DNA of 64,000 bases from Nitratidesulfovibrio sp. SRB-5 (GTDB lineage Bacteria; Desulfobacterota; Desulfovibrionia; Desulfovibrionales; Desulfovibrionaceae). A program made the translations under genes and the position numbers. Under the pieces are notes generated by a model. The model searched no databases. It was not told the DNA's origin and worked only from the letters and a program-made list of their open reading frames with translations. Within the stretch, counting starts at the first letter, position 1. Each line of letters starts with the position of its first letter. Shown one piece after another: positions 15,345 through 37,467 of this stretch. The DNA is taken from the NCBI RefSeq assembly GCF_019931275.1, contig NZ_JAIOTY010000002.1, forward strand, positions 372,001 through 436,000. Direction: 5' to 3'.

Positions 15345-16925
15345 TTACGTGCGTTCGCGGTGCACGCGGGGCAGGTGCAGCAGGGCTTCCAGTCCGCCGC
15401 CCTCGCGGTTGGCCAGGATGATGTCGCCGCCGTGCTGTCGGGCGATGTTGCGGGCGATGGACAGGCCAAGGCCGCTGCCGCCGGTCTGGCGGTTGCGCGA
15501 ATGCTCCACGCGGAAGAACGGTTCGAACACCTTGTCCGTGCAGTGTTCCGGCAGGCCGGGGCCCCTGTCGCGGATGGCCACGGTCAGCGTGTCGCCCGTG
15601 TCCCGCACTTCCACGTCCACCTGTCCGCCGCCGTACCGCACCGCGTTTTCCAGCAGGTTGGACAGGCAGCGCTTCAGCGCCAGGGGTTGGGCCTGGATGT
15701 GGGTGGGGCGCCCTTCGGCGGTGCCGTGCACGGTAATGCGCAGCGGCGTCTGCCCTGCCTGTCCCGCCTGTATGGTCTGTCCCGTTTGCCCCGCATGCAG
15801 GTCCAGGCAGTCCTCGGCCAGGCTTTCCAGCAGGGCGGCCACGTCCACGGCGGCGGTGGCCTCGCGGCTGTCGGTGCTGCGCACGAAGTCGATGGTGGTG
15901 GAAAGCAGGTCCCGTATTTCGTCAAGGTCCGTCAGGAACCGTTCGCGCAGTTCCGGCGGCTCCACCTGGTCCGCGCGCAGGCGCATGCGGGTGACCGGGG
16001 TGCGCAGGTCGTGCGAGATGGCGGCCAGCAGCCGCCCGCGCTCGTCCACGAACTGGCGGATGCGGTCCTGCATGCGGTTGAAGGCCTGCGCCGCGCGGCG
16101 GATTTCCAGCGGGCCGCGCTCCGGCAGGGGCGCGCGCACCAGCCCGGCGCCGAATTCGTCGGCGGCGTCGGCCAGCATGCGCAGGGGACGGGTCATCCAG
16201 CCCACCACGATCAGGCCCAGCAGGGCCACGCCCACGATGCGCCAGCCCAGATCCCACAGCATGGGGTGGGGTATCCATGGCCGGTCACCACCGGGCAGCA
16301 CGTGGGTGAATACAGCCCACATGCCATCGCGCAGGCGTATGCCCACGGTGTAGCCGATGTCGTAATGGCCGTCGTCGGCGCGGCCCGGTGGTGGCGGCGG
16401 GCGGCGCCCCACGTCGCGGGCAATGCCGTCCACCCGGCAGACAAGCTGCATGTCCGGGGCCAGCAGCCCGCGCAGATGGTCCGCGAAGATGGCGGAATAC
16501 ACGTCGGCGGCCAGGGCGGGCATGCCCGGTGTGCCGGACGTGCCCGGCGTGCCCGGTGCGCCGGACACTTCGGACGGGGGCATGCTGCCATGGGGGGTGA
16601 TGGGCGGGGTGGCGGTCAGGGCGATGCGGCTGGCACCCTGCACCATCTGTCCGATCATGTCCGTCCGGACATCGGGCCGGGCGGCATCCAGCAGCAGGGC
16701 CTGCCCCGCAAGGCGCATGGCGGCCTGGCGGGCCACGGAACTGTAGACGAACGGTCCGCCGCGCGTGACCACGTACAGCATGCTGACGATCTGGATGAGC
16801 ACCATGCCGCACGCCAGCACCAGCACCACCCTGCCGCGCAGGGTGCGCGGGGGCAGTGCCGCCAGAAGCCGCGCGAAGGGGAACGGCGGCCTTGCGGCCG
16901 GGGGGGCGGCGTTGGCGGGTGTCAT
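15345..16925 (-). CDS. Sensor histidine kinase, EnvZ-like
   Basis: A 526-residue membrane kinase. Membrane segments at about 33-52 and 226-246 bracket a periplasmic loop. The loop holds a collagen-like Gly/Pro run at 121-136 ([16 protein letters not shown]) and a Pro run near 175. HAMP follows, then the phospho-acceptor His 305 in [13 protein letters not shown], the N box [12 protein letters not shown]1 DRGPGLPE and G2 [12 protein letters not shown]. Its ATG overlaps the regulator stop by four bases, so the pair is one operon. The divergent exporter operon is the probable target. Confidence 0.92.
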
Positions 16926-17749
16926 GCGTCTGCCGGGCCCGGGAAGGGACGAGGGGGCGTGCCGGGCCCGAAGCCCGTTGCGCCATCCGTTGCGCCATTG
17001 GGGGCACCATCGGTTCCGGCATCGCGTTCCACGTCGGTGGCCAGGTAGTAGCCGTCGCCGCGCACGGTCTTGATGATCTGCGGCTCGCGTCCGTTGTCGC
17101 GCAGCCGGGTGCGCAGGCGGCTGACCAGCACGTCTATGGACCGGTCAAAGGCTTCCGCCGCGCGGCCCTGGGTCAGGTCCAGCAACTGGTCGCGGCTCAT
17201 CACCCTGTTGGGATACTTCAAGAAAAACCGTAGCAGACGGTATTCCGCGCCGCTCAGGTTCACCACCACCCCGTCCGGGGCCACCAGGTGGCGCGGCACC
17301 GTGTCCAGCGTCCACCCGGCAAAGCGGATGGTGCGCGACATGGCCTCCGGCTCTGCCTTGGCGATGTTTTCGGGCAGGGCGCGGGCGCGGCGCAGCACGG
17401 TGCGGATGCGGGCCACCAGTTCGCGCGGGTTGAACGGCTTGGCCACGTAGTCGTCGGCGCCCAGTTCCAGCCCGATGATGCGGTCGGTGTCGTCGTCCAG
17501 CGCGGTCAGCATGATCACCGGCAATTCGGACCGGGCGCGCAGCTTGCGGCACAGGGTCAGCCCGTCGTCTCCGGGCAGCATCACGTCCAGCACCACGAGG
17601 TCGTAGCGGCCCACCTCGAGCATGCGGAACATTTCGCTGCCGTCGGCGGCGGATTCGGCGCGAAAGCCGTGCTTGTCCAGATAGCCTGTGAGCAGGGCGC
17701 GGATTTCGGGGTCGTCGTCCACGACCAGGATGTGTTCCGGGGTGTTCAT
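16922..17749 (-). CDS. OmpR-family response regulator
   Basis: A 275-residue regulator: receiver domain at 1-120 with acidic pocket DDD 11-13, phospho-acceptor Asp 55 (LVVLDVMLPGDDG) and Lys in VAKPFNP. An OmpR-type winged-helix domain follows at about 138-240 (RSIDVLVSRLRTRLRDN, IKTVRGDGYYLA). The C-terminal 35 residues are a low-complexity Gly/Asp/Pro tail. The start is ATG 17749 (MNTPEHILVVDDD); the much longer open frame upstream runs back into the divergent region. It probably binds the GCAAC repeats between itself and the exporter operon. Confidence 0.92.
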   Translation of the reverse strand: MNTPEHILVVDDDPEIRALLTGYLDKHGFRAESAADGSEMFRMLEVGRYDLVVLDVMLPGDDGLTLCRKLRARSELPVIMLTALDDDTDRIIGLELGADDYVAKPFNPRELVARIRTVLRRARALPENIAKAEPEAMSRTIRFAGWTLDTVPRHLVAPDGVVVNLSGAEYRLLRFFLKYPNRVMSRDQLLDLTQGRAAEAFDRSIDVLVSRLRTRLRDNGREPQIIKTVRGDGYYLATDVERDAGTDGAPNGATDGATGFGPGTPPRPFPGPADA

Positions 17750-20363: not shown

Positions 20364-21515
20364 ATGCGACGCAACATCATTCTTGCCTACGTCCTTCCCG
20401 CCCTGGCCCTCGCGGGCCTCGCAGCGGGCGTCGTGCACGCCTCGCGCACGTCGGCGCCGCCCGCCCCGGTGCCCCCGGTGGCCGATCCTGCCGCGCCGCC
20501 CTACGAACGGTACATCAGCGGTTCCGGCATAGTGGAGGCGGCCAGCCGCGACGTGGGCGTGGCCACGCCCACGTCCGGAGTCATTGTGGAGATTCCCGTC
20601 ACCGTGGGAGACGCGGTGAGGAAGGGCGACATGCTGTTCCGGCTGGACGACCGCGAGCGCAAGGCGGCCCTGGCGCAGCAGAGGGCGGCCCTGGCGGTGG
20701 CCCGCGCCCGGGTGGCCGAGGCCCGCGTGGCGCTGGAAAAGGCCCGTGCCGACGCCGCCCGCGTGCGCAGCCTGCGCGACGGACGCGCCGTGAGCGCCGA
20801 AGAGGCGGCCCAGCGCGGCTACGCCGAGGACGCCGCCCGCACCGCGCTGGCTTCGGCCACGGCGGATGCGGCCCAGGCCGAAGCGGCGGCCCGGGCCATA
20901 GAGGTGGACCTGGACCGGCTGTGCGTGCGCGCCCCCATGGATGCCACGGTGTTGCAGGTGAACGTGAGCGAGGGCGAATACGCCACGGCGGGCGCGCTTT
21001 CCACGCCGCTGGTCATGCTGGGCGACGTCAGCCGCCTGCACGTGCGGGTGGACATCGACGAGAACATCGCCTGGCGCTACCGCGCGGGCATGCCCGCCAC
21101 GGTGTTTCTGCGCGGCAACCGCGATTTTTCCGCGCCGTTGCGCTTCGTGCGGGTGGAGCCCTACGTGCTGCCCAAGACGTCCCTGACCGGCGACACCACA
21201 GAGCGTGTGGACATCCGCGTGTTGCAGGTGCTGTACGCCTTCGACGTCCGGGATATGCCCGCCTACGTGGGTCAGCAGGTGGACGTGTATTTCGATGACA
21301 CCGGACCCCGCGCCGGGATCGGCCCGGCGGCGGGCGGCATGGCCCGCATGGGGGACGACGCGCCGGGTTCGACGGGCCGCGTCGGTGAGGCGGGCGCCGT
21401 GGCGGTGGAGCGGTCCGCCGTCGGAGGGGCCATGCCCGAAGTGGTGGTGCCGGTGCGCGACCTGAAAAAGGGCGCAGGCTCCCGGAGACCTGCCGACGCG
21501 GGGGTACGGGGATGA
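20364..21515 (+). CDS. Periplasmic adaptor (HlyD/MacA-like) of the ABC exporter
   Basis: A 383-residue membrane-fusion protein. The N-terminal segment at about 6-26 is an anchor or signal. The split biotinyl-lipoyl domain (VATPTSGVIVEIPVTVGDAVRKGD and LCVRAPMDATVLQVNVSEGE) flanks a helical hairpin at about 105-185. A beta-barrel follows, and then a low-complexity Gly-rich tail from about residue 310. It joins the permease in the inner membrane to the outer-membrane factor. The gene is 84 bases after the ATPase and overlaps the next gene by four bases. Confidence 0.9.
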   Translation: MRRNIILAYVLPALALAGLAAGVVHASRTSAPPAPVPPVADPAAPPYERYISGSGIVEAASRDVGVATPTSGVIVEIPVTVGDAVRKGDMLFRLDDRERKAALAQQRAALAVARARVAEARVALEKARADAARVRSLRDGRAVSAEEAAQRGYAEDAARTALASATADAAQAEAAARAIEVDLDRLCVRAPMDATVLQVNVSEGEYATAGALSTPLVMLGDVSRLHVRVDIDENIAWRYRAGMPATVFLRGNRDFSAPLRFVRVEPYVLPKTSLTGDTTERVDIRVLQVLYAFDVRDMPAYVGQQVDVYFDDTGPRAGIGPAAGGMARMGDDAPGSTGRVGEAGAVAVERSAVGGAMPEVVVPVRDLKKGAGSRRPADAGVRG

Positions 21516-23182
21516 CCGCGCCGTTGCGCCCGAGGTGCCGGGGTGCGGGAGGAATGTCCCCACGCCCCGTGTCGAACCGCCTTTCGTGGCTCCGGGGCGT
21601 GCCGTGCCGCCCATGCGTCCTGCCGGGCGTCCTGCCGGGCCTCCTGCTGTGCGCGGTGCTGGCGGCGGGCTGCGCCGCCGCGCCCGCCGCGCCGCGCCCC
21701 GACATGCCCGCCGCGTGGAGCACGGGGGCGTCCGCCCTGCCTTTCGCCACCGGGGCGGGCGGCCTGCCTTCCGCCACCGGGGCGGGCGGCCTGCCTTCCG
21801 CCACCGGGGCGGGCGCGCAGGCCGCGCACTCCGGCGCGACGCTGGCCCGCTGGTGGGGCACCTTTGGCGATCCGGCGCTGGACCGTCTGCTGGCCCGTGC
21901 CGCCACCGCCAACTTCGATGTGCGCATCGCCGCCGAAAAGGTGCGCGAGGCCCGCGCCGCCGCGCGCGAGGCCGGGGCCAGCCTTGGTCCCACGGTCACC
22001 GGTTCCGCCTCCGGCACCCGCATCCGCTCCGGCACGGGCGAGGCGCAGTCCTCCGGCTCGCGCGATGGCAACGTGTATGCCACGGGCCTGGACATGGCCT
22101 GGGAAATCGATCTGTTCGGGCGGCTGCGCGCCACCCGCGAGGCCCGCGTGGCCGATGCCCAGGCGGCGGAAGAGGACCGGCGCGACACCCTGGTCACCCT
22201 GCTGGCAGAGGTGGCCACCCAGTACGTGACCCTGCGTCAGGCCCAGAACGAACTGGCCCTTACCCGCGACATCGCGGCCAGCCGGGCCGAAACCCTGGCC
22301 CTGGTCACCGACCGGCGCGACGCGGGCCTTGCCGGGGACATCGACGTGGCGCAGGCCGCCGCGCTGTGGCATGCCGCGCAGGCCGACGCCGCCGAGTATG
22401 AAAACAACGCCTGGGCGGCCCTGGCCCGTCTGGAACGCCTGACGGGCGCGGCACCCGGCGAACTGCGGCCCGTGCTGGAGGTGGCCGCGCCCATTCCGGT
22501 GCCCGCGCGGGAGGTGCCCGTGGGCCTGCCCGCAGACCTGCTGCTGCGCCGCCCGGACATCCGCGCGGCGGAGCGCACCCTGGCAGCGGCGGCGTCGGAC
22601 CTTGCCGCCACCACGGCGGAACGCTGGCCCACGCTCAGCCTGTCGGCCACGCTGGGGTCGCAGGCGTCCACGGTGAACAGGCTGTTGTCTTCGGGCAGCG
22701 GGGTGTGGTCCGTGGCCCCGGCGCTGGGGCTGACCCTGTTCGATTCCGGAGCCACCACGGCGCGCATCGAACAGGCCGACGCCCGGCGCGAACAGGCCGC
22801 ACTGGCCTATCTTTCCACGGCCCGCACGGCGGTGGAGGAGGCGGAAACCGCCCTGTACGCCGTGGACCGCCAGCAGCGCAGGTTGCCCGATCTGGCCGCC
22901 GTGCTGGAGGCGGACCGTACCGCCCTCGTCCTTGCCCGGGACCGCTACCGGGCGGGGCTGACCGATTTTCTGGCCGTGGCCGATGCCGAGCGCGAACTGT
23001 CCACCGCCGCCCTGACCCACGTACGGGCGCGGGCGGCGCTGGCCACCCGCGCCATCACCCTGTACCGGGCGCTGGGCGGCGGCTGGGCCGCGACGCAGGG
23101 CGAGGAACGGGCCAGCGTTTCCGCCACGGGGCTTGCCCCCGCCCCCACGCCGCCTGCCGCAGGCGTGGACGCCGCATCATGA
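21512..23182 (+). CDS. Outer-membrane efflux lipoprotein, NodT/TolC-like
   Basis: A 556-residue outer-membrane factor. A long N-terminal signal ends in the lipobox LAAGC near residue 51, so the mature protein is lipid-anchored. Two OEP repeats follow, with NodT features WWGTFGDPALDRLLARA, GLDMAWEIDLFGR, LPADLLLRRPDIRAAE and LGLTLFDSG. The first residues after the lipobox include a 27-base tandem repeat. The start (ATG 21512) overlaps the adaptor stop. It completes a tripartite export channel across both membranes. Confidence 0.92.
   Translation: MTAPLRPRCRGAGGMSPRPVSNRLSWLRGVPCRPCVLPGVLPGLLLCAVLAAGCAAAPAAPRPDMPAAWSTGASALPFATGAGGLPSATGAGGLPSATGAGAQAAHSGATLARWWGTFGDPALDRLLARAATANFDVRIAAEKVREARAAAREAGASLGPTVTGSASGTRIRSGTGEAQSSGSRDGNVYATGLDMAWEIDLFGRLRATREARVADAQAAEEDRRDTLVTLLAEVATQYVTLRQAQNELALTRDIAASRAETLALVTDRRDAGLAGDIDVAQAAALWHAAQADAAEYENNAWAALARLERLTGAAPGELRPVLEVAAPIPVPAREVPVGLPADLLLRRPDIRAAERTLAAAASDLAATTAERWPTLSLSATLGSQASTVNRLLSSGSGVWSVAPALGLTLFDSGATTARIEQADARREQAALAYLSTARTAVEEAETALYAVDRQQRRLPDLAAVLEADRTALVLARDRYRAGLTDFLAVADAERELSTAALTHVRARAALATRAITLYRALGGGWAATQGEERASVSATGLAPAPTPPAAGVDAAS
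21734..21815 (+). repeat. 27-base tandem repeat inside the efflux lipoprotein gene
   Basis: About three copies of a 27-base unit encode GGLPSATGA; the first copy is degenerate. It lies in the linker between the lipobox and the first OEP helix, where length variation would be tolerated. Confidence 0.8.
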
Positions 23183-23256: not shown

Positions 23257-23667
23257 ATGAAAGAGTCCCGCATTCCCCTGATTACCGCCCTGTTCTGCGG
23301 CCTGCTGCTGCATACGGAATTCACGGCCATGGCGGAGCACGGTGTTGCCACCCCTGGCGACGCGGCCCCGGCGGTTGAAGCGCCGCCTTCGACCACGCCG
23401 GGTTCAGCGGCCACGCGAAAGGAGCAGGGGCATCGTTTCGACCTGGCCGACCGCGACCATGACGGCAGCCTGAGCCGCGAGGAGGCCGCCCACCCCGAAA
23501 CCGGCCTGCCCGTGGTGACCCGCGAATTTGCCAACATCGACACCAACGGCGACGGCAAGCTGAGCAAGGCCGAACTGCTGCGCTTTGCCCGTGAACGGCG
23601 CCAAGCCAATCATGCGAATCAGACCAATCATGCGAATCAGGCCCGGCGGGTCGACCCGAAGTCGTGA
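23257..23667 (+). CDS. Periplasmic EF-hand protein
   Basis: A 136-residue exported protein. ATG 23257 has GGGAG eight bases upstream and gives a clean signal peptide (MKESRIPLITALFCGLLLHTEFTAMA). An upstream ATG at 23179 overlaps the efflux gene stop but would bury that signal. Two calcium-type loops are visible: DRDHDGSLSREE and DTNGDGKLSKAE. The end contains a duplicated Asn/His/Gln unit (NHANQT). Its place as last gene of the exporter operon suggests a periplasmic metal or calcium-responsive accessory protein (inference). Confidence 0.78.
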   Translation: MKESRIPLITALFCGLLLHTEFTAMAEHGVATPGDAAPAVEAPPSTTPGSAATRKEQGHRFDLADRDHDGSLSREEAAHPETGLPVVTREFANIDTNGDGKLSKAELLRFARERRQANHANQTNHANQARRVDPKS

Positions 23668-23731
23668 CGGCGGTATGCCCGGCAGGCCGACCCTGCATCG
23701 TGACGGCGGCATGCCGGGCAGTTTCGACCCA

Positions 23732-23746
23732 GTAAAGAAATGTAAA
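23732..23746 (+). promoter_or_regulatory. Perfect GTAAA-N5-GTAAA box (CpxR-type) in a convergent region
   Basis: GTAAA, five bases (GAAAT), GTAAA. This is the direct repeat recognised by CpxR in enterobacteria. Here it lies between two converging genes (EF-hand gene and cpxA-like gene), with no start codon nearby on either strand. Its use is therefore unclear; it may be a relic or may serve a small transcript. Confidence 0.4.
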
Positions 23747-23778
23747 GACGCCACCCGGCAAAATTTGCCCGGCTTTGC

Positions 23779-23806
23779 CCGCCCCGCACACTGTTGTGCG
23801 GGGCGG
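23779..23806. terminator. Strong hairpin between converging exporter operon and cpxA-like gene
   Basis: CCGCCCCGCACA and TGTGCGGGGCGG pair perfectly around a four-base loop (CTGT). T-rich bases follow on the right (TCTGCTTTGG) and less so on the left. It is placed to end both converging transcripts. Confidence 0.65.
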
Positions 23807-23936
23807 TCTGCTTTGGGTGACAAGGGCTTTGGCTGCGGGAGCCAGCAAGGACTGGCGTGGCGGGCGGGGAAGGTGCCGGGGCATCCGGTCCGGCGGCGCA
23901 AGGCCGACGGGCGGAGCGGCGATGCGCACCGCGCCC

Positions 23937-25649
23937 CTAGGCGGGCAGGCGGATGGTAACCTGCAACCCGCCCGTGGGCAGGTTTTCGGCGGCTATGGTG
24001 CCGCCGTGCAGTTCCACGGCGCGCTGGGCGATGGCCAGGCCAAGCCCGGTGCCCGTGCCGCGCGGGGCATTGCCCGCCCGGAAGAACGGCACGAAAAGCA
24101 TGGGCAGGTCGGCTTCGGGGACGCCCGGCCCCTGGTCCCGGACGGAAATGACCACCTGCCGTTCCGGCCCGGAACCGTTGTCGGCTCCGGCTCCCCGGCT
24201 GGCGTCGCAGGTTTTCCGGCAGGTGTCGCGGCATGCGCCCACGGGGGTGCCGGACGGTTCTGCCCGGTCCGCCACGCAGGACAGGGTCACGGTTACCTGC
24301 GTATCCGGCGGCGAGAACTTCAGGGCGTTCTGCACCACGTTGTCCAGCGCGCCGTACAGCATTTCGCGCATGCCGTGAAAGGCCGCGCACGGGGTGTTCA
24401 CGCGCAGTTCCACCCGCTTGGCGTCCGCGCGGGCCTGAAAGTCGGTTTCGTCCGCCAGTTGAGTCAGCATGGCTTGCAGGTCGAACCATGCGGGCGGCGC
24501 CTCCTCTTTCTGCTGGTCCAGGTGCCCGGTGGCCAGCAGATGGGCGCTGAGGGTCGAAAGGCGTTCCGCATCGCGGCGGATGCGTTCCAGAAAGCGCTGC
24601 GATTCGGGCGAGACGGTGCGCGAGGCCATTTCCAGCGCCAGCGACACGCGCGAAAGGGGCGAACGCATCTCGTGCGACACGTCGTGCAGCAGGCGACGCT
24701 GGGTTTGCAGCAGTTCTTCGGTGCGCGCGGCCATGGTGTTGAAGTCGCGGGCAAGGCGCGCCAGTTCGGTGCCGTGGGTGGCCACATCGCCGGTGACGCG
24801 CGCCTGCAGGTCGCCCCGGGCAAAGCGTTGCAGCGCGCTGCCCACTTCGCCTATGGGCCTGCTGGCCTGGCGCAGCAGCAGGTGCAGCACCCCGCCCGCC
24901 AGCACCATGGCCACGGCCAGGGGCAGCACGAAGGGGGGCAGGCGCATGTCCGGCGGGGTGGGCATGTCCTTGCGCAGGGTCAGCACGCCGTGCGCGCCGC
25001 CGGGCAGGTCGATGGGGTCGGCCATCAGCACGGCCGGGCGCAAGGTGAACGGCTGCGGAAAGTCCAACTGGGTGGCCCCCGTGTCGCGTGCGTCCTCGGC
25101 CTGCTCGCGTGCCTCGGCCTGAATGGCGGCCTCCGTTTCCGGCGATTGCCAGACGGGTTCGCGGGGAGGTTCAGTGGGCGGGGGACCGGGGGGGATGCGT
25201 CCTTCCAGGGCGCCCAGGATGCGTTCCGACCAGGACAGTTGCGGAGGCGGCCCCATGGGCAGACCGGGAAGGGGGCCTGCCGGGCCGGTTCCGCCTGCCG
25301 CGACGGCGCGCGGTTTCGTGCCGTCCCGCTCATCCGGGAAGGGGGGCGGACCAAAGGGTACAGGCATCACCGGGCCGTTGTCGGCCAGCGGCTGCAATCC
25401 GGCGTCGTGCACCACCACGCGCACGCCGCGCTCGCGCAGCGTGCCCAGCAGGGCGTCCAGCTTGTCCGTGCGCCCTTCGGCCAGATATTCGGAAACGCGG
25501 TCGCCCAGCAGGTCCAGCAGCACGGCGTTCATCTCGAAGGGGCCGCGCCTGGGGCGCTCCTCCAGCCGGAACCGGACGAAGGTGCCCAGGGTGAAGATGC
25601 CGCAGCCGACCAGCAGCAGCACCAGCAGCCTAACCGGCCACGTTCTCAT
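23937..25649 (-). CDS. Sensor histidine kinase, CpxA-like
   Basis: A 570-residue kinase. Membrane segments lie at about 6-24 and 240-260. Between them is a long Pro-rich periplasmic domain (runs such as GPPPFPDER and PPGPPPTEPP). HAMP is at about 262-312. The phospho-acceptor is His 326 in LHDVSHEMRSPLSR, a CpxA-like H box. The N box is NVVQNALKFSPP, with DQGPGVPE and GTGTGLGLAIAQR after it. It overlaps the regulator stop by 20 bases. CpxA homologues sense envelope protein stress; the Pro-rich sensor domain differs from the enterobacterial one, so the signal may differ. Confidence 0.9.
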   Translation of the reverse strand: MRTWPVRLLVLLLVGCGIFTLGTFVRFRLEERPRRGPFEMNAVLLDLLGDRVSEYLAEGRTDKLDALLGTLRERGVRVVVHDAGLQPLADNGPVMPVPFGPPPFPDERDGTKPRAVAAGGTGPAGPLPGLPMGPPPQLSWSERILGALEGRIPPGPPPTEPPREPVWQSPETEAAIQAEAREQAEDARDTGATQLDFPQPFTLRPAVLMADPIDLPGGAHGVLTLRKDMPTPPDMRLPPFVLPLAVAMVLAGGVLHLLLRQASRPIGEVGSALQRFARGDLQARVTGDVATHGTELARLARDFNTMAARTEELLQTQRRLLHDVSHEMRSPLSRVSLALEMASRTVSPESQRFLERIRRDAERLSTLSAHLLATGHLDQQKEEAPPAWFDLQAMLTQLADETDFQARADAKRVELRVNTPCAAFHGMREMLYGALDNVVQNALKFSPPDTQVTVTLSCVADRAEPSGTPVGACRDTCRKTCDASRGAGADNGSGPERQVVISVRDQGPGVPEADLPMLFVPFFRAGNAPRGTGTGLGLAIAQRAVELHGGTIAAENLPTGGLQVTIRLPA

Positions 25650-26466
25650 GCCCCGTCCCGAGGCTCGGTTCCGCCGCGTCCTGCCCGCCGAAGGTGGATT
25701 CCGTGGGAGAAACGCGGAAGTAGTACCCCGACCCGCGCACCGTGCCCACGCGGGGTTGGCCGTCGTCGCAGGGGCCCAGCTTCTTGCGCAGGTTGCTGAC
25801 GTGCACGTCGATGGACCTGTCGAAGGGCAGGATTTCGCGCCCCAGTACCCCGCGCGAGATGTCCTCGCGCGCGACGGTTGCGCCTTCGGCCTCCAGCAGC
25901 AGGACCAGGATGGCGTACTCCACGGGGGTCAGGGGCAGGGGGGCGCCGTCGCGCAGGGCCGTGCGGGCCGAACGGTCCACGGTAATGCCCCCGAAGGACA
26001 GGTTGCGCTTGCGGTACGGCCCCACGCCACCGATGCAGCCCACGCCGCCCGAACCCGCGCCGGTCCCTGCTCCCGCCATTCCCGCCGCTGCCCCCATTCC
26101 ATGAACACGGGTGCGGCGCAGCACGGCGCGCAGGCGCGCCAGCAGTTCGCGTGGCACGAAAGGTTTGGGGACGTAGTCGTCCGCGCCCATCTCCAGCCCC
26201 ACGATGCGGTCCACGTCGTCGCCGCGCCCGGTCAGCATGAGCACGGGCAGGGCCGAACGGGAACGGATGGTGCCGAGCACGTCGAAGCCGCTGGCGTCTG
26301 GCAGGGCCACGTCCAGCAGGGCCGCGTCGTAGTCGCCCGAAAGGGCGCGCGCCAACCCCTGTCCACCGGTGTGGCAGGGTTCAACGGCAAGCCCTTCGGG
26401 AGCAAGATATTCGGTCAGTAATGCGCAGAGTTCCTTGTCGTCGTCGATCAACAAGACTCGATCCAT
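25630..26466 (-). CDS. CpxR-like OmpR-family response regulator
   Basis: A 278-residue regulator with receiver domain (DDDKE, Asp in ALLDVALPDASG, Lys in VPKPFVP) and a winged-helix DNA-binding domain (FDRSIDVHVSNLRKKLGP, TVRGSGYYFRV). A Gly/Ala-rich linker near 135-155 separates them. ATG 26466 follows GAGGGTG; the longer frame upstream crosses the divergent promoter. A GTAAA-N5-GTAAG repeat stands about 93 bases upstream, fitting autoregulation as in cpxRA. It is divergent from the ECF sigma gene. Confidence 0.9.
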   Translation of the reverse strand: MDRVLLIDDDKELCALLTEYLAPEGLAVEPCHTGGQGLARALSGDYDAALLDVALPDASGFDVLGTIRSRSALPVLMLTGRGDDVDRIVGLEMGADDYVPKPFVPRELLARLRAVLRRTRVHGMGAAAGMAGAGTGAGSGGVGCIGGVGPYRKRNLSFGGITVDRSARTALRDGAPLPLTPVEYAILVLLLEAEGATVAREDISRGVLGREILPFDRSIDVHVSNLRKKLGPCDDGQPRVGTVRGSGYYFRVSPTESTFGGQDAAEPSLGTGHENVAG

Positions 26467-26558
26467 GATGTCACCCTCTGGGCGGTGGCACATATTTCCC
26501 GGTTGCCGCTTGCGACCGGGTATACTGCAAGAATTGCGCCCGAATGATTTCCGTGAAT

Positions 26559-26573
26559 GTAAAACAATGTAAG
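26559..26573 (+). promoter_or_regulatory. CpxR-type box GTAAA-N5-GTAAG in the divergent cpxR-like/ECF region
   Basis: GTAAA (26559-26563), ACAAT, GTAAG (26569-26573). It lies in the 286-base gap between the cpxR-like gene (left) and the ECF sigma gene (right), so it could control both. The half-site spacing equals that of the enterobacterial CpxR box. No other gene is seen in this gap. Confidence 0.6.
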
Positions 26574-26752
26574 CTAGTGTGTCTGATGTTTTCAAAACCC
26601 TACCTGTCCTGAACGGACAATGTGGGTGGCCTGGCGTATGGATACTGACAGCCCGTCATGTACGGGACTTGGCTTTTCCACAATTTCCGGCGTGGTGCAT
26701 GGACCCGGTTGCCGCAATTCCGGCTCCACAGAACGCACGACTGGAGATGAAG

Positions 26753-27340
26753 ATGGAAGCCAATACAGGAACCACTACGGATATAGCGGCATGCATGACC
26801 GGCGACGGAAAGGCATGGCGCCGTTTCGTGTCTGTCTATGCCCCGGTGATCCACAAGGCCGTGCACTACACCCTTCAGTGGAACGGAGGGGATGCCGCGG
26901 GGCTCGACGCGCAGGACGTGACGCAGGAGGTGTTCTGCCGCCTGGTGGGCGACGGGTTCCGCCTGCTGTCCACCTACAATCCTGCCCGGGCGGGCCTGGC
27001 CACATGGCTTACCGTGGTGGCCAGGTCCACCGCGCTCGACTGCCTGCGGGCGCGCCGCACCGAACGGATGACACGGCAGGTTCCCTATACCCCCGAACTG
27101 GAGGAGGAACTTGCCGAACGGCTGTGGGCCGAGGCCCCGGCTTCGGTCCCGGACGACCGCGGGATGCTGGACCTGCCCCCCGGGCTGCTGAGCAGGCGGC
27201 AGGGTACCGTGCTGCGACTGTTGTTCCAGGATGACCTCGATACCGATGAAGTGGCGCGCACGCTGGACATCCATCCCAAGACCGTGCGCAGTCTGAAGCA
27301 GAACGCCCTTGCGCGGCTGCGCCATCACTTCTGCCTGTGA
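26753..27340 (+). CDS. ECF-type RNA polymerase sigma factor
   Basis: A 195-residue sigma factor. Region 2 is recognisable (WRRFVSVYAPVIHKAVHY, DAQDVTQEVFCRLV, TYNPARAGLATWLTVVARSTALDCLRARR). Region 4 follows (LLSRRQGTVLRLLFQDDLDTDEVARTLDIHPKTVRSLKQNALARLRH). ATG 26753 has GGAG at 26743-26746 with proper spacing; the open frame extends 58 codons further but without a start signal. No anti-sigma gene is adjacent; a zinc-finger candidate lies at the far end of the flagellar block. Target promoters are unknown. Confidence 0.85.
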   Translation: MEANTGTTTDIAACMTGDGKAWRRFVSVYAPVIHKAVHYTLQWNGGDAAGLDAQDVTQEVFCRLVGDGFRLLSTYNPARAGLATWLTVVARSTALDCLRARRTERMTRQVPYTPELEEELAERLWAEAPASVPDDRGMLDLPPGLLSRRQGTVLRLLFQDDLDTDEVARTLDIHPKTVRSLKQNALARLRHHFCL

Positions 27341-27356
27341 TGCCGCCGCGCAACGC

Positions 27357-27385
27357 AAAGGCCCGGAATGTTCCGGGCCTTTTCT
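27357..27385 (+). terminator. Terminator of the ECF sigma gene
   Basis: AAAGGCCCGGAA, TG, TTCCGGGCCTTTTCTTT: a perfect stem followed by a T run, 16 bases after the stop codon. Confidence 0.9.
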
Positions 27386-27411
27386 TTGTGCCAAAGGCAG
27401 GCGGCGCAGGC

Positions 27412-27431
27412 AATGCAAAGTAATGCAAAGT
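27412..27431 (+). promoter_or_regulatory. Perfect 10-base tandem repeat AATGCAAAGT upstream of flagellin
   Basis: Two exact copies give GCAAA-N5-GCAAA, the same spacing as the GTAAA boxes but with C for T. It lies about 155 bases before the flagellin start, between the ECF terminator and the flagellin promoter. A regulator-binding site is likely; which protein binds is inference. Confidence 0.5.
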
Positions 27432-27487
27432 TACTGTTATGAACGTTAATTGCGTGGCTTTTAGAGTGGTTATGGAAAATTGAAAAT

Positions 27488-27515
27488 TAAGAGAGCGGCG
27501 TATCTGCGTCGATAG
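27488..27515 (+). promoter_or_regulatory. Sigma-28 (FliA)-like flagellin promoter candidate
   Basis: TAAG at 27488-27491 and GTCGATAG at 27508-27515, separated by 16 bases. They resemble the FliA consensus TAAA-N15-GCCGATAA with two mismatches and one extra spacer base. The 5' leader to the flagellin ATG would be about 65 bases and carries GGAGG. Confidence 0.5.
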
Positions 27516-27586
27516 GATCAACAAGCATGCGCTGCATGCATGGCAGAGGCACACAAGGATAGTGCATTTTTCATGGAGGAAAAACC

Positions 27587-28474
27587 ATGTCTCTCGTCGT
27601 CAACAACAACTTTACGGCGCTCACAACGGCAAATACGCTCAACGCTACCTACAACAAGCTTGAAAAGTCCACCCAGCGTCTGTCGTCCGGCCTGCGCATC
27701 AATTCGGCAGCAGACGATGCCGCCGGTCTTGCCATCCGCGAACTGATGCGTTCCGACATCACGGCGTTGAACCAGGGCGTTCGCAACGCCAACGACGCCA
27801 TTTCGCTGATCCAGACGGCGGACGGCGCCATGGAAACCATCGACGAAAAGCTCATCCGCATGAAGGAACTGGCGGAACAGGCCGCCACCGGTACCTACAA
27901 TTCGGACCAGCGCCTGATCATCGATTCGGAATACCAGGCCATGGCCTCGGAAATTACCCGAATCGCCAATGCCACGGACTTCAACGGCATCGCGCTGCTG
28001 AACGGCAACCTGTCCAATTCGACCTACGATGGTTCGGGCCTGACTTCCACGGGGCAGTTGCACATCCACTTCGGCTCCGGCAACGACAGCGCGCAGGACT
28101 ACTACGAAATCCGCATCGGCTCGGTGTCGGCCAAGTCGCTGGGCCTCGGCAACACCGCCAGCGGCAACGGGTCCAGCATCTCCACCCAGCAGGCCGCCCA
28201 GGACGCGCTGGATGCCATCGACAACGCCATCATCTCCAAGGATCAGATCCGTGCCTCGCTGGGCGCCATGCAGAACCGGCTGGAAGCCACCATCACCAAC
28301 CTCGAGACCCAGTCCGAGAACCTTTCCGCCGCCGAATCACGCATCTCGGACGTGGACGTCTCGCTGGAAATGACCGAGTACACCAAGCAGCAGGTGCTGG
28401 CGCAGACCGCCGTGGCCATGCTGTCGCAGGCCAATTCGCTGCCGCAGATGGCGCTTTCGCTGATCGGCGGTTAG
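27587..28474 (+). CDS. fliC: Flagellin
   Basis: A 295-residue flagellin with the conserved N-terminal D0/D1 helices (NNNFTALTTANTLNATYNKLEKSTQRLSSGLRINSAADDAAGLAI) and C-terminal D1/D0 (ESRISDVDVSLEMTEYTKQQVLAQTAVAMLSQANSLPQMAL). The variable middle (about 150-200) is short, so the filament surface is small. GGAGG precedes the ATG. It stands alone with its own terminator and is transcribed opposite to the rest of the flagellar block. Confidence 0.97.
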   Translation: MSLVVNNNFTALTTANTLNATYNKLEKSTQRLSSGLRINSAADDAAGLAIRELMRSDITALNQGVRNANDAISLIQTADGAMETIDEKLIRMKELAEQAATGTYNSDQRLIIDSEYQAMASEITRIANATDFNGIALLNGNLSNSTYDGSGLTSTGQLHIHFGSGNDSAQDYYEIRIGSVSAKSLGLGNTASGNGSSISTQQAAQDALDAIDNAIISKDQIRASLGAMQNRLEATITNLETQSENLSAAESRISDVDVSLEMTEYTKQQVLAQTAVAMLSQANSLPQMALSLIGG

Positions 28475-32205: not shown

Positions 32206-34278
32206 CTAATCCCGTAGCGAAAGGATGGTGTCGAACATGGAGTTCGCCACCTGAATGAGCTGTGCGGCGATGCTGTACGACTGCTGGTACTTGGTAAGGT
32301 TGAGAAGCTCCTCCTCCGTGCTCACGCCGGAGATGCTCTGCTGCATGTCGTCGGCATTGTCGGCCAGGGTACTGTAGTAGGTGTACTTTCTGGCGGAAGT
32401 ATCCACGTCCGTGCCCACGGTGGACGCCAGGGCGGCCAGTTGCTTGCTCAGCGTCTTGGAGACGGAGCCGCTTCCGATGTTCAGCGTCACCTTGGTGTCC
32501 GCCAGGGCCGCAAGATTGTTGGCGCAGGTGCTGTCGCCGGAAAGGGCCTCGCCCGAGGCGTCCACCACGCCCGCGTTGACCCGGTTGGGGTCGTTCAGCA
32601 CGGAATCGGACACCGTGATGGTGCCCGCGTCGGACCCCGAGAAGAAGGTGTTGATGCCCAGCGCGGCGAGCAGCCCGGAGGTGTCGCCCGCGAACTGGAA
32701 CGACATGCCGTCCGTCGCGGCGATGGTGAGCTGCCCGTTGTTGATGGAGGCGGTGAGCTGGCCGGAAAACGTGGTGTTGATGGTGTCGGCCACGTCTTGC
32801 AGGCTGTCGGATGCGGGGTCGATGGCGATGGACGACAGCGTGGACACCTCTCCGGTGTCGTCGTCGTACACCGAGATGGACAGGGTGCCCGAGCCCAGTC
32901 GGTCGGCGTAGGCAAGGCTGCTGTCTGCCAGGGGCGTGGTGGCGCTGCCCGTGGAGTTTTCGGCGGTGACGGACGAGAAGCCGGTCAGGCCCGCGCCCTG
33001 GCTGTGCACGTAGTTGACCTGCCAGGCCAGCTCTTCCGCCAGGGCGTCCAGCGTCTCCAGGTAACTGCCCACGTATTGGTCGCGGGTGGCCAGCAGCCCG
33101 GCTAGGCTGCCGCCCGAAAGGCGGTTGTTGCTGCCCGACGCGGTGACGTCGACGGGGGTGACGTTCACCTTTCCGGAGGTGGTCTGGTACCAGTACACCC
33201 CCGACTTCGCCATGACGGCGAAGTCGTCGCCCACGGCCAGCGTGCCGCCCGCTGCCGCGCCGGAATCCGTCGCCGAACCGAACCAGATGGACACCCCGGC
33301 TACGGTCACCTTGTCGTCCGCGCCCGATGCCGTGAACAGCAGGGCATTGCCGGAATCGTCGGTGAGCCAGGTTTTCCCGCCGTCCAGCGAGACCTTGTAG
33401 GTGGCCGCACTGGCCGTACCGTCCGCAGAGCCGGAGGTGACGAACTCCAGGGCGATTTCGTGGCTGCTTTCGCCCTCGAAGTAGATTTGCCCGTCGAAGG
33501 TGGAGGCGGACGTCAGCGACTGGGTGGCCTGCGGCCCCTCGTAGGCCAGCTTGCAGGTGTTGCCGCCCTGCACCAGGGTCTGGCCCTCGCCGGTGTACAC
33601 GGTCACCTGGCCGTCGCTGTTGTACACCACGGAAAGGTCGAGGTAGGTGGCCAGATCGCGCAGGGTCGTGGCCTGGCTGTCCAGCAGGGTGGCGTTTTCC
33701 GGATCGCTGGCCAGTTGCGAGTTGAGGTCGGCCAGGGTGTTCAGCAGGTCGTTGATGTCGTCCACCTGCTGTTCGATCTGGGTGTTCAGGCTGGTCTGTA
33801 CGGCTTCCAGGCTGTCGCTGGTGGAATTGATGAGCGCGGTCAGGGTTTCGGCATACCCGGTCAGCTCGGTACGGGCGGCTTCGCTTTCCGGGTCCGCGGC
33901 CAGCGCATCGAGGCTGGTCCAGAAGGCGTCCAGCGCGGTGGACAGGTCGTAGCCTTCGTCGTCGCTGTCGTCGAACAGCGTCTCGATGGACGAAAGCGCG
34001 GAGGTTATGGTCTCCCACATGGAGGCATCGGAACTGTACGACAGGTACTGCGACTCCACCGTGTAGCTGAAGTGGCGGGTGATCTCGGCAACTTCCGCCC
34101 CGGAGCCGTAGGTGTAGCTGCCGCTGCTGACCGTGGGGCCGGTGGTGTACTGCACCGTTTGCCGCGAGTAGCCGGTCACGTCGGCGTTGGCCAGGTTGTT
34201 GCTGGTCACCGAGATGCCGACCTGCGCGTTGCTGAGCGCGCTGGCGCCGATGTTGAAAATGGAGTTGAGCGAAGACAT
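32206..34278 (-). CDS. flgK: Flagellar hook-associated protein FlgK
   Basis: A 690-residue HAP1 protein with the canonical start (SLNSIFNIGASALSNAQVGISVTSNNLANADVTGYSRQTV) and end (TEEELLNLTKYQQSYSIAAQLIQVANSMFDTILSLRD). It joins hook and filament together with FlgL. The central part holds an Asp-box (SLDGGKTW near residue 302) and a YWYQT-containing domain related to those in FlgL. flgL starts 36 bases after its stop, so the two are co-transcribed. Confidence 0.95.
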   Translation of the reverse strand: MSSLNSIFNIGASALSNAQVGISVTSNNLANADVTGYSRQTVQYTTGPTVSSGSYTYGSGAEVAEITRHFSYTVESQYLSYSSDASMWETITSALSSIETLFDDSDDEGYDLSTALDAFWTSLDALAADPESEAARTELTGYAETLTALINSTSDSLEAVQTSLNTQIEQQVDDINDLLNTLADLNSQLASDPENATLLDSQATTLRDLATYLDLSVVYNSDGQVTVYTGEGQTLVQGGNTCKLAYEGPQATQSLTSASTFDGQIYFEGESSHEIALEFVTSGSADGTASAATYKVSLDGGKTWLTDDSGNALLFTASGADDKVTVAGVSIWFGSATDSGAAAGGTLAVGDDFAVMAKSGVYWYQTTSGKVNVTPVDVTASGSNNRLSGGSLAGLLATRDQYVGSYLETLDALAEELAWQVNYVHSQGAGLTGFSSVTAENSTGSATTPLADSSLAYADRLGSGTLSISVYDDDTGEVSTLSSIAIDPASDSLQDVADTINTTFSGQLTASINNGQLTIAATDGMSFQFAGDTSGLLAALGINTFFSGSDAGTITVSDSVLNDPNRVNAGVVDASGEALSGDSTCANNLAALADTKVTLNIGSGSVSKTLSKQLAALASTVGTDVDTSARKYTYYSTLADNADDMQQSISGVSTEEELLNLTKYQQSYSIAAQLIQVANSMFDTILSLRD

Positions 34279-34492: not shown

Positions 34493-36070
34493 CTAGCGCT
34501 TCAGGCCAAGCGCGGTCTGGAGCATTTCGTCCACGGTGGTGATGACCTTGCTGTTGGCCTGGTAGGCGCGCTGCATCACGATGAGGTCGACCATCTCGGT
34601 AGAGACGTCCACGTTGGATTCCTCCAGCTTTTCCCCGTAGATGCTGCCGTAGATGCCCTGCCCGGCCCTGCCGATGTTGGCCGTGCCCGATTCGGTGGTG
34701 GCCGAGTACAGGTTGCCGCCTTCCAGTTGCAGGCCCTGGTCGTTGTTGAAGCTGGCAAGGGCCACGATGAACAGGGCCTGGGTCTGGCCGTTGGAGTAGG
34801 TGGCGTAGATGACCCCGCCCTCGTCCACGTAGTAGCTGGTCAGGTAGCCCGTGGCGTAGCCGTTCTGGCTGGAACTGTCGGTGCTGCTGGCCGAATCGTG
34901 GCTGGTGGCGCGGTCGGTGTCGTAGGCGGTGGAGGTGAAGCCGAACAGCAGCGTGCCGTCCGTGCCGATGTCCGCCGCGCTGGTCACGGTGGTGTTCCAG
35001 CCGTCGGTGATGGACTTGGCGGACAGGCCGAAGTCCAGTTCGACCTGGATGGCGTCTGCCTCATCGGTGGTGCTGGCGTTGGCCGACCCGGAAAAGTTGC
35101 ACGCGAACACCGGCAGGCCGTCGGTGGAAAGTTCGGCCAGGGTCCAGTTGGAAAGGTCTGTCAGGTCGCCGCTGGCGGTGGAGCTGAGCGTGAAGGCAGT
35201 CTGCGAGACCAGCGCGCCGGTGGCGTCGAAGGACAGCGTGCCCGCCATCAGCAGGCCGGCGGCGGATGTGCCCGACACGCTCTGGCCGCCGATGGTGCGC
35301 ACGTCCTCGCTGGGGTCCATGGTGACGATGTATTCCCAGGTGGTGGAGCCGGTGGTGGAGTCCTCCACCTGGTCGAAGTACACGGTCAGTTCATGGGCGG
35401 ACCCGGCCTCGTCGTACACGGTGATGGTGGTCTGGTACTCGTACTTGGTGGTGCCCAGGGGGTCGTCGGCGCTGCCGTCCCATTCCGTCAGCAGCGAGAA
35501 GTACGGGTCGGTGGTGGAGGTGGAGTTGTCGTCGCCGCCGGAATCCAGGTTCACCGTCAGGGTCACGTTGGTGGTGGCCGAAGCGGGCGAGGTGCGGCTC
35601 TTGAGCTGGATGTCGCCCAAGGCCCCGGTGGTGGACGGATCGGTGGAACTGGCGGTGTCCGGGTCCACGGCCCAGCCCTGCACCTGGTAGCCGGAGGAGT
35701 TCACCAGGTAGCCTTCGGTGTTGAACGTGAAGTCCCCGGCGCGGGTGTAGTATATCTGGCCGTCGTTCTGGGGGTCTTCCACGATGAAGTAGCCCACGCC
35801 CCCGATGGCCATGTTCATGGCCTGGGAAGTGCTTTGATACGAGCCTTGCGAGAAGTCTGTGGCAATGGCCGATATCGTGGAGCCATTGCCGATCTGGTCG
35901 ATGCCGCCGGACGTGGTGATGGAGGAATAGAACACGTCCTCGAACAGCATGGACATGGACTTGTAGCCCGTGGTGCTGGAGTTCGCGAGGTTGTTGCCGA
36001 TGACGCTGATGGATTCCGCAGTGCTCAGCAGCCCAGAAACGCTGGCATACATGGAGGAGGAAAGGCCCAT
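34493..36070 (-). CDS. flgE: Flagellar hook protein FlgE
   Basis: A 525-residue hook protein. The N-terminal SSMYASVSGLLSTAESISVIGNNLANSSTTGYKS and C-terminal NVDVSTEMVDLIVMQRAYQANSKVITTVDEML are classic flagellar rod/hook motifs. The middle D2-type domains are Thr/Ser/Asp-rich and longer than in enterics. It follows flgD closely (33 bases), so the two are probably one transcript. It forms the flexible hook assembled by FlgD. Confidence 0.95.
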   Translation of the reverse strand: MGLSSSMYASVSGLLSTAESISVIGNNLANSSTTGYKSMSMLFEDVFYSSITTSGGIDQIGNGSTISAIATDFSQGSYQSTSQAMNMAIGGVGYFIVEDPQNDGQIYYTRAGDFTFNTEGYLVNSSGYQVQGWAVDPDTASSTDPSTTGALGDIQLKSRTSPASATTNVTLTVNLDSGGDDNSTSTTDPYFSLLTEWDGSADDPLGTTKYEYQTTITVYDEAGSAHELTVYFDQVEDSTTGSTTWEYIVTMDPSEDVRTIGGQSVSGTSAAGLLMAGTLSFDATGALVSQTAFTLSSTASGDLTDLSNWTLAELSTDGLPVFACNFSGSANASTTDEADAIQVELDFGLSAKSITDGWNTTVTSAADIGTDGTLLFGFTSTAYDTDRATSHDSASSTDSSSQNGYATGYLTSYYVDEGGVIYATYSNGQTQALFIVALASFNNDQGLQLEGGNLYSATTESGTANIGRAGQGIYGSIYGEKLEESNVDVSTEMVDLIVMQRAYQANSKVITTVDEMLQTALGLKR

Positions 36071-36103: not shown

Positions 36104-36772
36104 TTATGCGTCGGAGGAGACGACGCTGTAGACGTCTTCGAGGTTCACCGTGCGGCCATCGGACAGGGTGAGCACCGTGGTGCCGTTTTCCACGGAGACG
36201 CCGGAAACCGTGCCCGCCACCATGGTGGAGACCTCCAGGCTGCCGCCGTCCTCGTCGTAGGCTTCGAACACCACGCTGTAGGTTCCGTTGGCCGCTTCGG
36301 CGCCGGTGTAGTTGGTGCCGTCCCAGCTGAAGGTGTAGGTGCCGCTGTCCGTGGCGCCGAGGGAGACGGAATTGATGATGGTGCCGCTGGAGTTGTAGAC
36401 GTGCGCGGTAAGGCTTTGCGCGTCCGACTCCAGGGTGAAGGAGACCACGGTGGTGGCGTCGTCGGTCTTGGATATGTCGTCACCCTCGGCCAGCACGGAC
36501 TGTCCGATGAAGCTCACGGCCGAGTTCAGGCTCATGGCCGTCAGCGAGTCGTAGATGGACGTGGCCGTGTCGTTGAGGGCCGACAGCTGCTCCACCGTGG
36601 AGAACGAGGCGATCTGGTTGATCATCTCGGTGTTGTCGGCGGGGTTGGTGGGGTCCTGGTTCTGCAATTCCGCGATGAGCAGTTGCAGAAAGGCGTCGGA
36701 ATCAAGCGTGGTTCCGCTGCTGGACGTCGATGACGTGCTGGCGGCGCTAGCCAAGGATGAGATAGTGGTCAT
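36104..36772 (-). CDS. flgD: Flagellar hook-capping protein FlgD
   Basis: A 222-residue protein. The N-terminal FlgD scaffold motif is clear (DSDAFLQLLIAELQNQDPTNPADNTEMINQIASFSTVEQL), followed by an Ig-like domain with YTFSWDGTNYTGAEAANGTYSV. FlgD caps the growing hook and controls FlgE insertion. The gene start overlaps the end of the upstream anti-sigma-like gene by 26 bases, suggesting translational coupling. Confidence 0.95.
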   Translation of the reverse strand: MTTISSLASAASTSSTSSSGTTLDSDAFLQLLIAELQNQDPTNPADNTEMINQIASFSTVEQLSALNDTATSIYDSLTAMSLNSAVSFIGQSVLAEGDDISKTDDATTVVSFTLESDAQSLTAHVYNSSGTIINSVSLGATDSGTYTFSWDGTNYTGAEAANGTYSVVFEAYDEDGGSLEVSTMVAGTVSGVSVENGTTVLTLSDGRTVNLEDVYSVVSSDA

Positions 36773-37094
36773 TGCCGTCCTCCGTGCCCTGATCCGTTCC
36801 GTGACCCGCGCCCGGTTGCGCTTCGTGTCGGCTTCCGAACGCCAGTGCCGCCTCGATGACCTCGAACGGCGTCTTCACTTCCGCAGCCTTCAGAATCTTG
36901 CGCAGTTCCAGAAGATCTTCCCTGCATGACCTGCACGCCGCAAAATGCGATTCAAGACGCTTGCGTTCTGCCGATGTGGCCGTCTTCTCCAGGTAACAGG
37001 CGATCATGTTTGCGCCGGGACATGGTGAAGTGTCCGTGCACAGTCCTTCCTCGATGGAATGGAGCACCGTCATGTGGTGCCGTTGCTGTCTCAT
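36747..37094 (-). CDS. Zinc-finger anti-sigma-like protein (zf-HC2 type)
   Basis: A 115-residue soluble protein. Residues about 32-75 contain the ZAS/zf-HC2 signature (ACYLEKTATSAERKRLESHFAACRSCREDLLELRK) with the H-x3-C-x2-C zinc ligands. Other Cys residues are at the N-terminus (GLCTDTSPC). No membrane segment is present, so it is of the cytoplasmic, possibly redox-sensitive kind. It is the first gene of the leftward flagellar operon and overlaps flgD. The ECF sigma gene at 26753 is the nearest possible partner. Start ATG 37094 is preferred over longer frames; the ribosome site is weak. Confidence 0.72.
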   Translation of the reverse strand: MRQQRHHMTVLHSIEEGLCTDTSPCPGANMIACYLEKTATSAERKRLESHFAACRSCREDLLELRKILKAAEVKTPFEVIEAALAFGSRHEAQPGAGHGTDQGTEDGNDHYLILG

Positions 37095-37186
37095 GGGCTG
37101 AACTTCCGTGCTGAGGTGTGAAGGCCCTGTTGTCCGTATGTACGGATGCGGCAGCACGAAATGCCCATCAAGAGACGGAAAGAGAT

Positions 37187-37202
37187 GTAAAGGTGGCTTT
37201 AC
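37187..37202. promoter_or_regulatory. Inverted repeat GTAAAG-N4-CTTTAC upstream of the flgD operon
   Basis: A perfect six-base palindromic pair about 93 bases before the anti-sigma-like gene start. It contains a GTAAA half-site as in the CpxR-type boxes, but inverted rather than direct. The surrounding gap (37095-37467) contains no gene; its right part holds the next terminator. Confidence 0.45.
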
Positions 37203-37370: not shown

Positions 37371-37467
37371 GGTGCAAGAGGGGGTCTGGGGGTGCAAGAT
37401 GGGATGGTGCGATGGCGGGAACCTTCCGCGCGCACCGGTAACACGGGAGGCGGCAGGGACGGGGCTT

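Follow-up and report, generated by a model that had tools for sequence, protein, structure and literature searches.

Genes at the locus

The window, by which we mean the whole 64-kb stretch of DNA that was analyzed, carries a two-component system (TCS) whose genes run divergently from the genes for an ECF sigma factor and the flagellin FliC (Table 1). The response regulator combines a receiver domain with a Trans_reg_C winged helix, as members of the OmpR/PhoB family do, and retains residues D52, T79, and K101. The kinase has two hydrophobic stretches (approximately residues 3-29 and 236-262) that lie about 200 residues apart, and its H-box histidine is residue 326. With the regulator ATG at 26466 on the minus strand and the ECF ATG at 26753 on the plus strand, the two genes are separated by a divergent gap from 26467 to 26752. 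A second OmpR-family TCS is encoded at 15345-17737, upstream of an outer-membrane efflux gene (21512-23182). An Rfam search over the window at gathering thresholds gave no matches.

The ECF protein is 195 residues long, scored 60.1 bits against TIGR02937 (cut-off 42.9), and has sigma70 regions 2 and 4 but lacks the other parts of a housekeeping sigma factor. GGAG lies 6 bases before its ATG. The ECF frame also stays open, and is conserved, before the chosen start (26579-26753), a part in which one genus genome (G002) lacks 51 bases, a number divisible by three. An upstream in-frame start may give a longer ECF protein.

Table 1. Coordinates of genes and repeat elements in the window
Feature	Position	Strand	Description
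Box B	23732..23746	+	GTAAAGAAATGTAAA; perfect; convergent gap downstream of the kinase gene
Sensor histidine kinase	23937..25649	-	Membrane protein, CpxA-like cytoplasmic part; Pfam HAMP, HisKA, HATPase_c
Response regulator	25630..26466	-	OmpR/PhoB family, CpxR-like; Pfam Response_reg and Trans_reg_C over cut-off
Box A	26559..26573	+	GTAAAACAATGTAAG; direct repeat, 10-bp period, between regulator and ECF genes
ECF sigma factor gene	26753..27340	+	Pfam Sigma70_r2 and Sigma70_r4_2 over cut-off
fliC repeat	27415..27430	+	GCAAAGTAATGCAAAG; conserved 10-bp-period direct repeat upstream of fliC
fliC (flagellin)	27587..28474	+	Next gene after the ECF gene; Pfam Flagellin_N, Flagellin_C
flgK (hook-filament junction)	32206..34278	-	Pfam FlgK_D1
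flgE (hook)	34493..36070	-	Pfam FlgE_D2, LlgE_F_G_D1
flgD (hook cap)	36104..36772	-	Pfam FlgD, FlgD_ig
zf-HC2 protein	36747..37094	-	Putative anti-sigma factor; Pfam zf-HC2 23.7 bits, cut-off 22.2
Box F	37177..37202	.	GGAAAGAGATGTAAAG-GTGG-CTTTAC; direct repeat plus inverted half-site, box variant

A tandem repeat in the divergent gap

The first-pass annotation had placed a GTAAA-N5-GTAAG repeat between the regulator and sigma factor genes, and this sequence is present in the gap as box A, 92 bases from the regulator start and 179 from the ECF start. We searched for the locus in 39 related genomes, eight of which (the window's own included) belong to the genus. The ECF protein was found in seven of the eight, and a regulator orthologue in the same seven. 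Neither had an orthologue in G003 (93% complete, 820 contigs) at the thresholds used. Alignment of the orthologous gaps revealed a perfect GTAAA-N5-GTAAA repeat, GTAAAACAATGTAAA, in all six other genus genomes with the locus, from which the window copy differs in its last base (G). The locus also occurs in the named records N. liaohensis XJ01 and Desulfovibrio sp. A2. The surrounding sequence is also well conserved (33 of 50 columns), so the conservation of box A taken alone is modest evidence of function.

Other elements in the gap are also conserved. TATA(C/T)C, a -10-like sequence, lies about 34 bases from box A on the regulator side, where its position would suit a promoter for the regulator operon. 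A CTGAACGGACA...CGTA stretch lies nearer the ECF gene than box A does in the aligned gaps. A sigma-70 scan of 23600-27600 returned a single promoter-like candidate, which is on the minus strand and shares bases with box A through its second hexamer, TACATT; we set it aside and do not rely on it.

This arrangement bears on an alternative in which box A is the regulator's autoregulatory operator only, and the divergent ECF gene has its own promoter outside the regulator's control. Box A is indeed nearer the regulator start, the -10-like element would be suitably placed on that side, and the CTGAACGGACA...CGTA stretch could be a separate ECF-type promoter. We consider this explanation unlikely, though it deserves serious attention: the ECF gene and the TCS stay paired in four genera, and a variant of the box also precedes the operon of a putative anti-sigma factor (both described below).

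Rarity, spacing, and recurrence of the repeat

We examined how often the repeat occurs. The first-pass annotation had expected it to be rare in GC-rich DNA and had named a genome scan as its check, with a common motif showing no association with genes counting against it. The 4.12-Mb genome holds six matches to GTAAAN5GTAAR, five of them perfect GTAAAN5GTAAA, so the expected rarity was borne out. Judged by eye, four of the six are clearly intergenic (boxes A, B, and C and site L004), one (box D) is intergenic only if translation does not begin at the longest ORF start, and one (L001) sits at the leuC/leuD boundary. The proposed scan, read by eye in this way, did not refute the idea. When up to two mismatches were allowed, the window contained 11 matches against 5.09 expected, a number reached by 2 of 100 shuffles.

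The five-base spacer is strongly preferred. Across the eight genus genomes, GTAAA-N5-GTAAA occurs 38 times, whereas the twelve other spacings between 2 and 14 average 3.9 occurrences, with a maximum of 7; with identical sequences counted once, the figures are 15 and 3.4. The seven genomes with the regulator contain 4-7 N5 pairs each, and G003 contains one. Among pairs with spacings of 3-9 in those seven genomes, 37 of 54 have the N5 spacing (Fisher p 3.5e-10). The corresponding count from eight of the thirteen genomes of other genera (G011, G014, G017, G020, and G022 being left out) is 26 of 134 (p 0.11), though N5 pairs are also frequent in two of these genera (11/25 in G015 and 7/22 in G008).

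The raw N5 total does not carry the case alone, since the backward pattern AAATGN5AAATG is close in number, with 26 matches in the same eight genomes. The two patterns part when matches are clustered by their flanks. The backward matches gave a family of six genomes, a family of two, one overlapping pair within a single genome, and 16 singletons. For the box, 29 of the 38 exact matches fall in five orthologous families (A-E), and alignment and search added one further member of family D, which brings the count to 30 of 38. The other eight comprise two matches at the leuC/leuD boundary (L001 and L053, by eye) and six singletons. Five box families are therefore found in at least four genomes, against one for the backward pattern (6 of its 26 matches). 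Because families B-E were gathered by exact match, their half-sites are in part invariant by design, while conservation at A (found by synteny), D (by DNA search), and F was established without exact matching.

These comparisons leave very little room for a chance origin, in which box A would be an AT-rich intergenic stretch that happens to hold two GTAAA words. The nearness of the 38 and 26 totals and the accidental look of the matches at leuC/leuD and before a chemoreceptor-like gene are what such an origin has in its favor. The spacing preference (38 against 3.9), the contrast of five conserved families with one, and the sites conserved at A, D, and F independently of exact-match collection make it highly improbable.

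Conserved sites outside the gap

Box B lies about 2.8 kb from box A. Its half-sites are exact in all seven genomes with the locus and its spacer varies. The flanking genes are convergent, and no target is evident. A strong terminator-like hairpin (23779-23806) begins 32 bases after box B, and the block from 23732 to 23810 is kept in all seven genomes, even in G002, where the neighboring EF-hand gene gave no match. The block could possibly give rise to a very short transcript or play a role in looping. Two copies of a 24-base sequence, 92% identical, lie within 23662-23721, one at the EF-hand gene's end and the other immediately after it.

The remaining families lie near genes of other kinds. 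The family C box precedes, by 48 bases, a gene whose product is repeat-rich and GGxGxD-like (assigned by eye; no Pfam match). The family D box has a TauE-like gene (by eye) on one side and, on the other, a gene for a small exported-looking protein without a Pfam match. It would be intragenic if the longest ORF start of the latter were real, and indels among the genomes there argue against that start. A DNA search found the D locus in all eight genus genomes. The box is kept in the seven that carry the regulator, with six exact copies and a single change in G001, and has two changes in G003, which gave no match for the regulator or the ECF protein. Family E has four members near a family-2 glycosyltransferase gene, two of which we checked (L055 by Pfam, L057 by eye).

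Could a different protein bind these boxes? OmpR-family sites look alike, and the genome encodes four Trans_reg_C proteins, so we weighed PhoB and the efflux-linked regulator at 17021-17737 as candidates. The PhoB box of the related bacterium Desulfovibrio vulgaris (PMC3333781) is likewise a direct repeat with a 10-bp period (6 bases plus a 4-base spacer) to which an OmpR-family regulator binds. Its half-site is (c/t)GT(n)AC, in contrast to GTAAA here, and this repeat occurs in none of the A-E boxes. We rejected PhoB as the binder on this ground. The paper also credits strain Hildenborough with only two OmpR-family regulators (PMC3333781), from which the present TCS may be absent in that strain. 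G003 furnishes a further point for another binder: it keeps box C intact and has no regulator orthologue, its sole match to the regulator at E 1e-20 being a more remote member of the family. The same genome holds one N5 pair against 4-7 in the regulator-bearing genomes, however, and its D box is altered. With boxes A and B flanking the present TCS, we regard another OmpR-family binder as improbable.

Flagellar context of the ECF sigma factor

All seven genomes with the locus have a single copy of the repeat upstream of fliC, which is not found in G003, and a similar repeat precedes fliC in another genus (L029). The window repeat is a possible weaker site of the same regulator. Three other genera (G017, G021, and Halodesulfovibrio, L124) keep the TCS-ECF-fliC order, with kinase and regulator genes on one side and ECF and fliC genes on the other. 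In G020 and G014 the regulator gene is divergent to fliC, and the ECF gene, within about 2 kb of the CpxR-like regulator gene, stands directly before flgD-, flgE-, and flgK-like genes (named by eye). The order in G009 is ECF, a zf-HC2-like ORF, flgD, flgE, flgK.

We built a tree of 19 ECF proteins that included three of the six genus relatives. The window protein, these three relatives, and the proteins from G017, G021, and Halodesulfovibrio form a clade of seven rows with support of 99/98. Within it, the ECF genes of the window, G017, G021, and Halodesulfovibrio all adjoin a TCS and fliC. The G020 and G014 proteins fall outside this clade on long branches. A link between this ECF factor and the TCS is likely, and the factor probably serves a flagellar role and not one like that of RpoE.

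An anti-sigma-type ORF also comes after the relatives of the ECF gene in Planctomycetota, Fundidesulfovibrio, and two MAGs, one alphaproteobacterial and one leptospiral. The zf-HC2 domain of the ORF after the ECF gene scored over the Pfam cut-off in L125, L126, L128, and L123 and under it in L131; the corresponding ORFs in L129 and L130 gave no zf-HC2 match in Pfam. The next gene in L126 and L130 (over cut-off) and in L129 (under cut-off), loci from Planctomycetota and the alphaproteobacterial MAG, codes for a Metal_resist/LTXXQ-like protein.

A putative anti-sigma factor gene heads the hook genes

No anti-sigma gene adjoins the ECF gene in the window, and our earlier working view was of an ECF factor without an anti-sigma factor. 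We dropped that view once we found a zf-HC2 gene 9.4 kb away, at the head of the flgD-flgE-flgK run. It codes for a protein of 115 residues and overlaps the start of flgD. The start codon was chosen by eye, and the frame is open to 37397 (longest ORF 36747-37397). Searches of the genus genomes gave one zf-HC2 match each in six of the eight, the window protein being the sole match in its own genome at E 0.001, and none in G003 or in G002, which is 75% complete and has the ECF gene. A profile of the anti-sigma-like proteins encoded beside related ECF genes matched the window protein at E 5e-12, and the next match outside the training set had an E value of 0.34. The layout in G017 is alike: a zf-HC2-like ORF immediately precedes flgD, and about 9 kb separate this ORF from the ECF gene. 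These likenesses suggest that the ECF and zf-HC2 proteins would act as a sigma/anti-sigma pair.

Box F lies 82 bases upstream of the chosen zf-HC2 start and would be intragenic if the longest ORF were real. Its GTAAAG-N4-CTTTAC core is kept in six of six genomes, with variation in the four-base spacer. We found no box upstream of the zf-HC2 gene in G017. Because the box variant precedes a flgD-flgE-flgK run headed by the one zf-HC2 protein found in the genome, the ECF factor is best seen as flagella-linked.

A motif model in the window and in other genera

We built a 16-base motif model from families A-E and scanned the window with it. The five best scores belonged to box B (30.7), box A (23.7), box F (20.5), a site at 15043 (19.2), and the fliC repeat (18.8), after which scores dropped to 11.6. 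Boxes A and B had gone into the model, and box F and the fliC repeat had not. The near-box at 15043-15058, before a chemoreceptor-like gene, has lost key bases in all four relatives fetched, and we discarded it as not conserved.

The model was also tried on the gaps upstream of eight distant regulator genes. Three of the gaps gave a site: CTGAAGAAATGTAAAG in G021 (equalled in 0 of 1000 shuffles), CTTAAGAATTGTAAAG in G017 (3 of 1000), and GTTAAAAAATGTTAAG in G014 (36 of 1000). The other five gaps gave no significant model site, including that of Halodesulfovibrio, where the site was CTTAAGAAAGGTTAAG (177 of 1000). Measured from the regulator start, the site is 92 bases away in the window, and the distance is 88 in both G017 and Halodesulfovibrio. 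These distant sites place the motif in a wider OmpR-family class of repeats with a 10-bp period, a class that is not specific to CpxR.

Comparison with CpxRA and other systems

The first-pass annotation had described the box as a CpxR-type element shared by a CpxRA-like system and the ECF gene. According to two papers, the CpxR site in E. coli and Pseudomonas aeruginosa is GTAAA-N5-GTAAA, or a form with N4-8 (PMC12802237, PMC5063474). The present system resembles CpxRA of these bacteria in its GTAAA half-site, its five-base spacer, and the position of the box beside the TCS genes. CpxR is also the best-scoring family model for the regulator. CpxR-like regulation, with a direct repeat that prefers a five-base spacer and lies in an autoregulatory position common to the divergent ECF gene, is thus well supported as a mode of working.

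Membership in the CpxRA family is another matter, and here the earlier claim found no support in the form given. The best NCBIfam model for the regulator was CpxR (NF008199) at 194 bits, below the cut-off of 341. The kinase reached 170 of 486 and 191 of 800 bits against the two CpxA models. At E 0.001, Pfam assigned it HAMP, HisKA, and HATPase_c and no CpxA periplasmic domain, and no CpxP-like (LTXXQ) gene is present among the operon neighbors (the ECF and EF-hand genes). The present system further differs from CpxRA in having ECF and flagellar genes attached, and relatives in other genera carry CTTAAG-like half-sites. The TCS may work like Cpx, as judged from these sequences, without being a proven member of that family.

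We consider it unlikely that the TCS is a genuine CpxRA orthologue that drives the two-tier envelope-stress circuit of the first-pass annotation by means of an RpoE-like ECF factor. The box architecture does match that in the Cpx papers (PMC5063474, PMC12802237), and CpxR is the top NCBIfam model for the regulator and for four of the five distant relatives tested. In the fifth, CseB, a family that drives an ECF gene, and CpxR are level at 178.1 and 178.2 bits. The missed cut-offs, the lack of a Pfam CpxA periplasmic domain, and the lack of CpxP speak against orthology. The envelope-stress role that had been proposed for the ECF factor also lacked support, since the factor and several of its relatives are encoded among flagellar genes and the zf-HC2 gene heads the flgD run behind a box variant.

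In Streptomyces, the CseBC system is encoded beside sigE in co-directional order. TCS control of an ECF gene is known from SigE/CseBC and SigQ/AfsQ1/Q2, and a review gives a handful of cases (PMC8999054). As with SigE/CseBC, the TCS here stands beside an ECF gene, and control is proposed at the level of transcription. It differs in its divergent orientation, its Gram-negative host, the existence of a putative anti-sigma gene (9.4 kb away), and its flagellar context.

A flagellar ECF factor with an anti-sigma factor, RpoE6/Asf6 of Azospirillum brasilense, was reported in 2025 to affect a flagellin, and its abstract presents RpoE6 as the first alternative sigma factor in Alphaproteobacteria shown to do so (PMC12826043). 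The window likewise has its ECF and anti-sigma-like genes in a hook/filament cluster, with fliC next to the ECF gene and the zf-HC2 gene before flgD. The term "two-component" is absent from the main text of that report (PMC12826043), whereas the window ECF gene adjoins a TCS. No Azospirillum plasmid record matched the window ECF protein at E 1e-3, so common descent with RpoE6 is unsupported as far as plasmid records go. Among the matches listed from the Desulfovibrio and Nitratidesulfovibrio literature, titles and abstract starts included no report that joins a CpxR-type TCS, an ECF factor, and flagella in sulfate reducers.

A proposed model for control of the ECF factor

From the observed sites, their conservation and spacing preference, the gene order, and the homologies, we favor with moderate confidence a reading in which a Cpx-like TCS autoregulates, governs transcription of the gene for a flagella-linked ECF factor, and probably also controls the operon of the putative anti-sigma factor. 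Regulator binding, the direction of control (tentatively activation), and the signal are all predictions from DNA and protein sequence. The kinase would sense an envelope or surface signal and phosphorylate the OmpR-family regulator, a dimer of which would bind tandem GTAAA(G) half-sites 10 bp apart. At box A the regulator would control its own operon, and the same box would set transcription of the divergent ECF gene. The regulator would also bind a small number of other sites: behind the kinase gene, before genes of surface or envelope type, and, as the variant, before the flgD-flgE-flgK run. The supply of the ECF factor, and probably that of its putative anti-sigma factor, would in this way be set by the TCS. 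The recurrence of the box before other surface and flagellar genes suggests that the sensor probably tunes flagella and the cell surface.

A more specific form of this reading can be offered tentatively. The Cpx-like sensor may directly control both halves of a flagella-specific ECF sigma/anti-sigma pair, with the sigma gene under box A, the anti-sigma-hook operon under box F, and a related repeat before the flagellin gene. If so, the locus would correspond to FliA/FlgM with gating by the envelope. The anti-sigma gene, which neighbors the ECF gene at several related loci, would have been separated from it here, and a TCS would stand in its place.

Either way, the reading links an envelope-type sensor with two targets, a flagella-linked ECF factor and the operon that encodes the putative anti-sigma factor. 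It also supplies a testable motif and a short target list for a TCS of environmental sulfate reducers. Two of the listed sites have further conserved sequences nearby. The leader in family C (L005:1501-1566) contains a hairpin-like GTGAC...GTCAC just ahead of the start codon. A conserved TATATG lies 23 bases beyond box D (L006, L044) on the strand that points away from the exported-protein gene and toward the end of the TauE-like gene, where it may mark the promoter of an antisense or small RNA.
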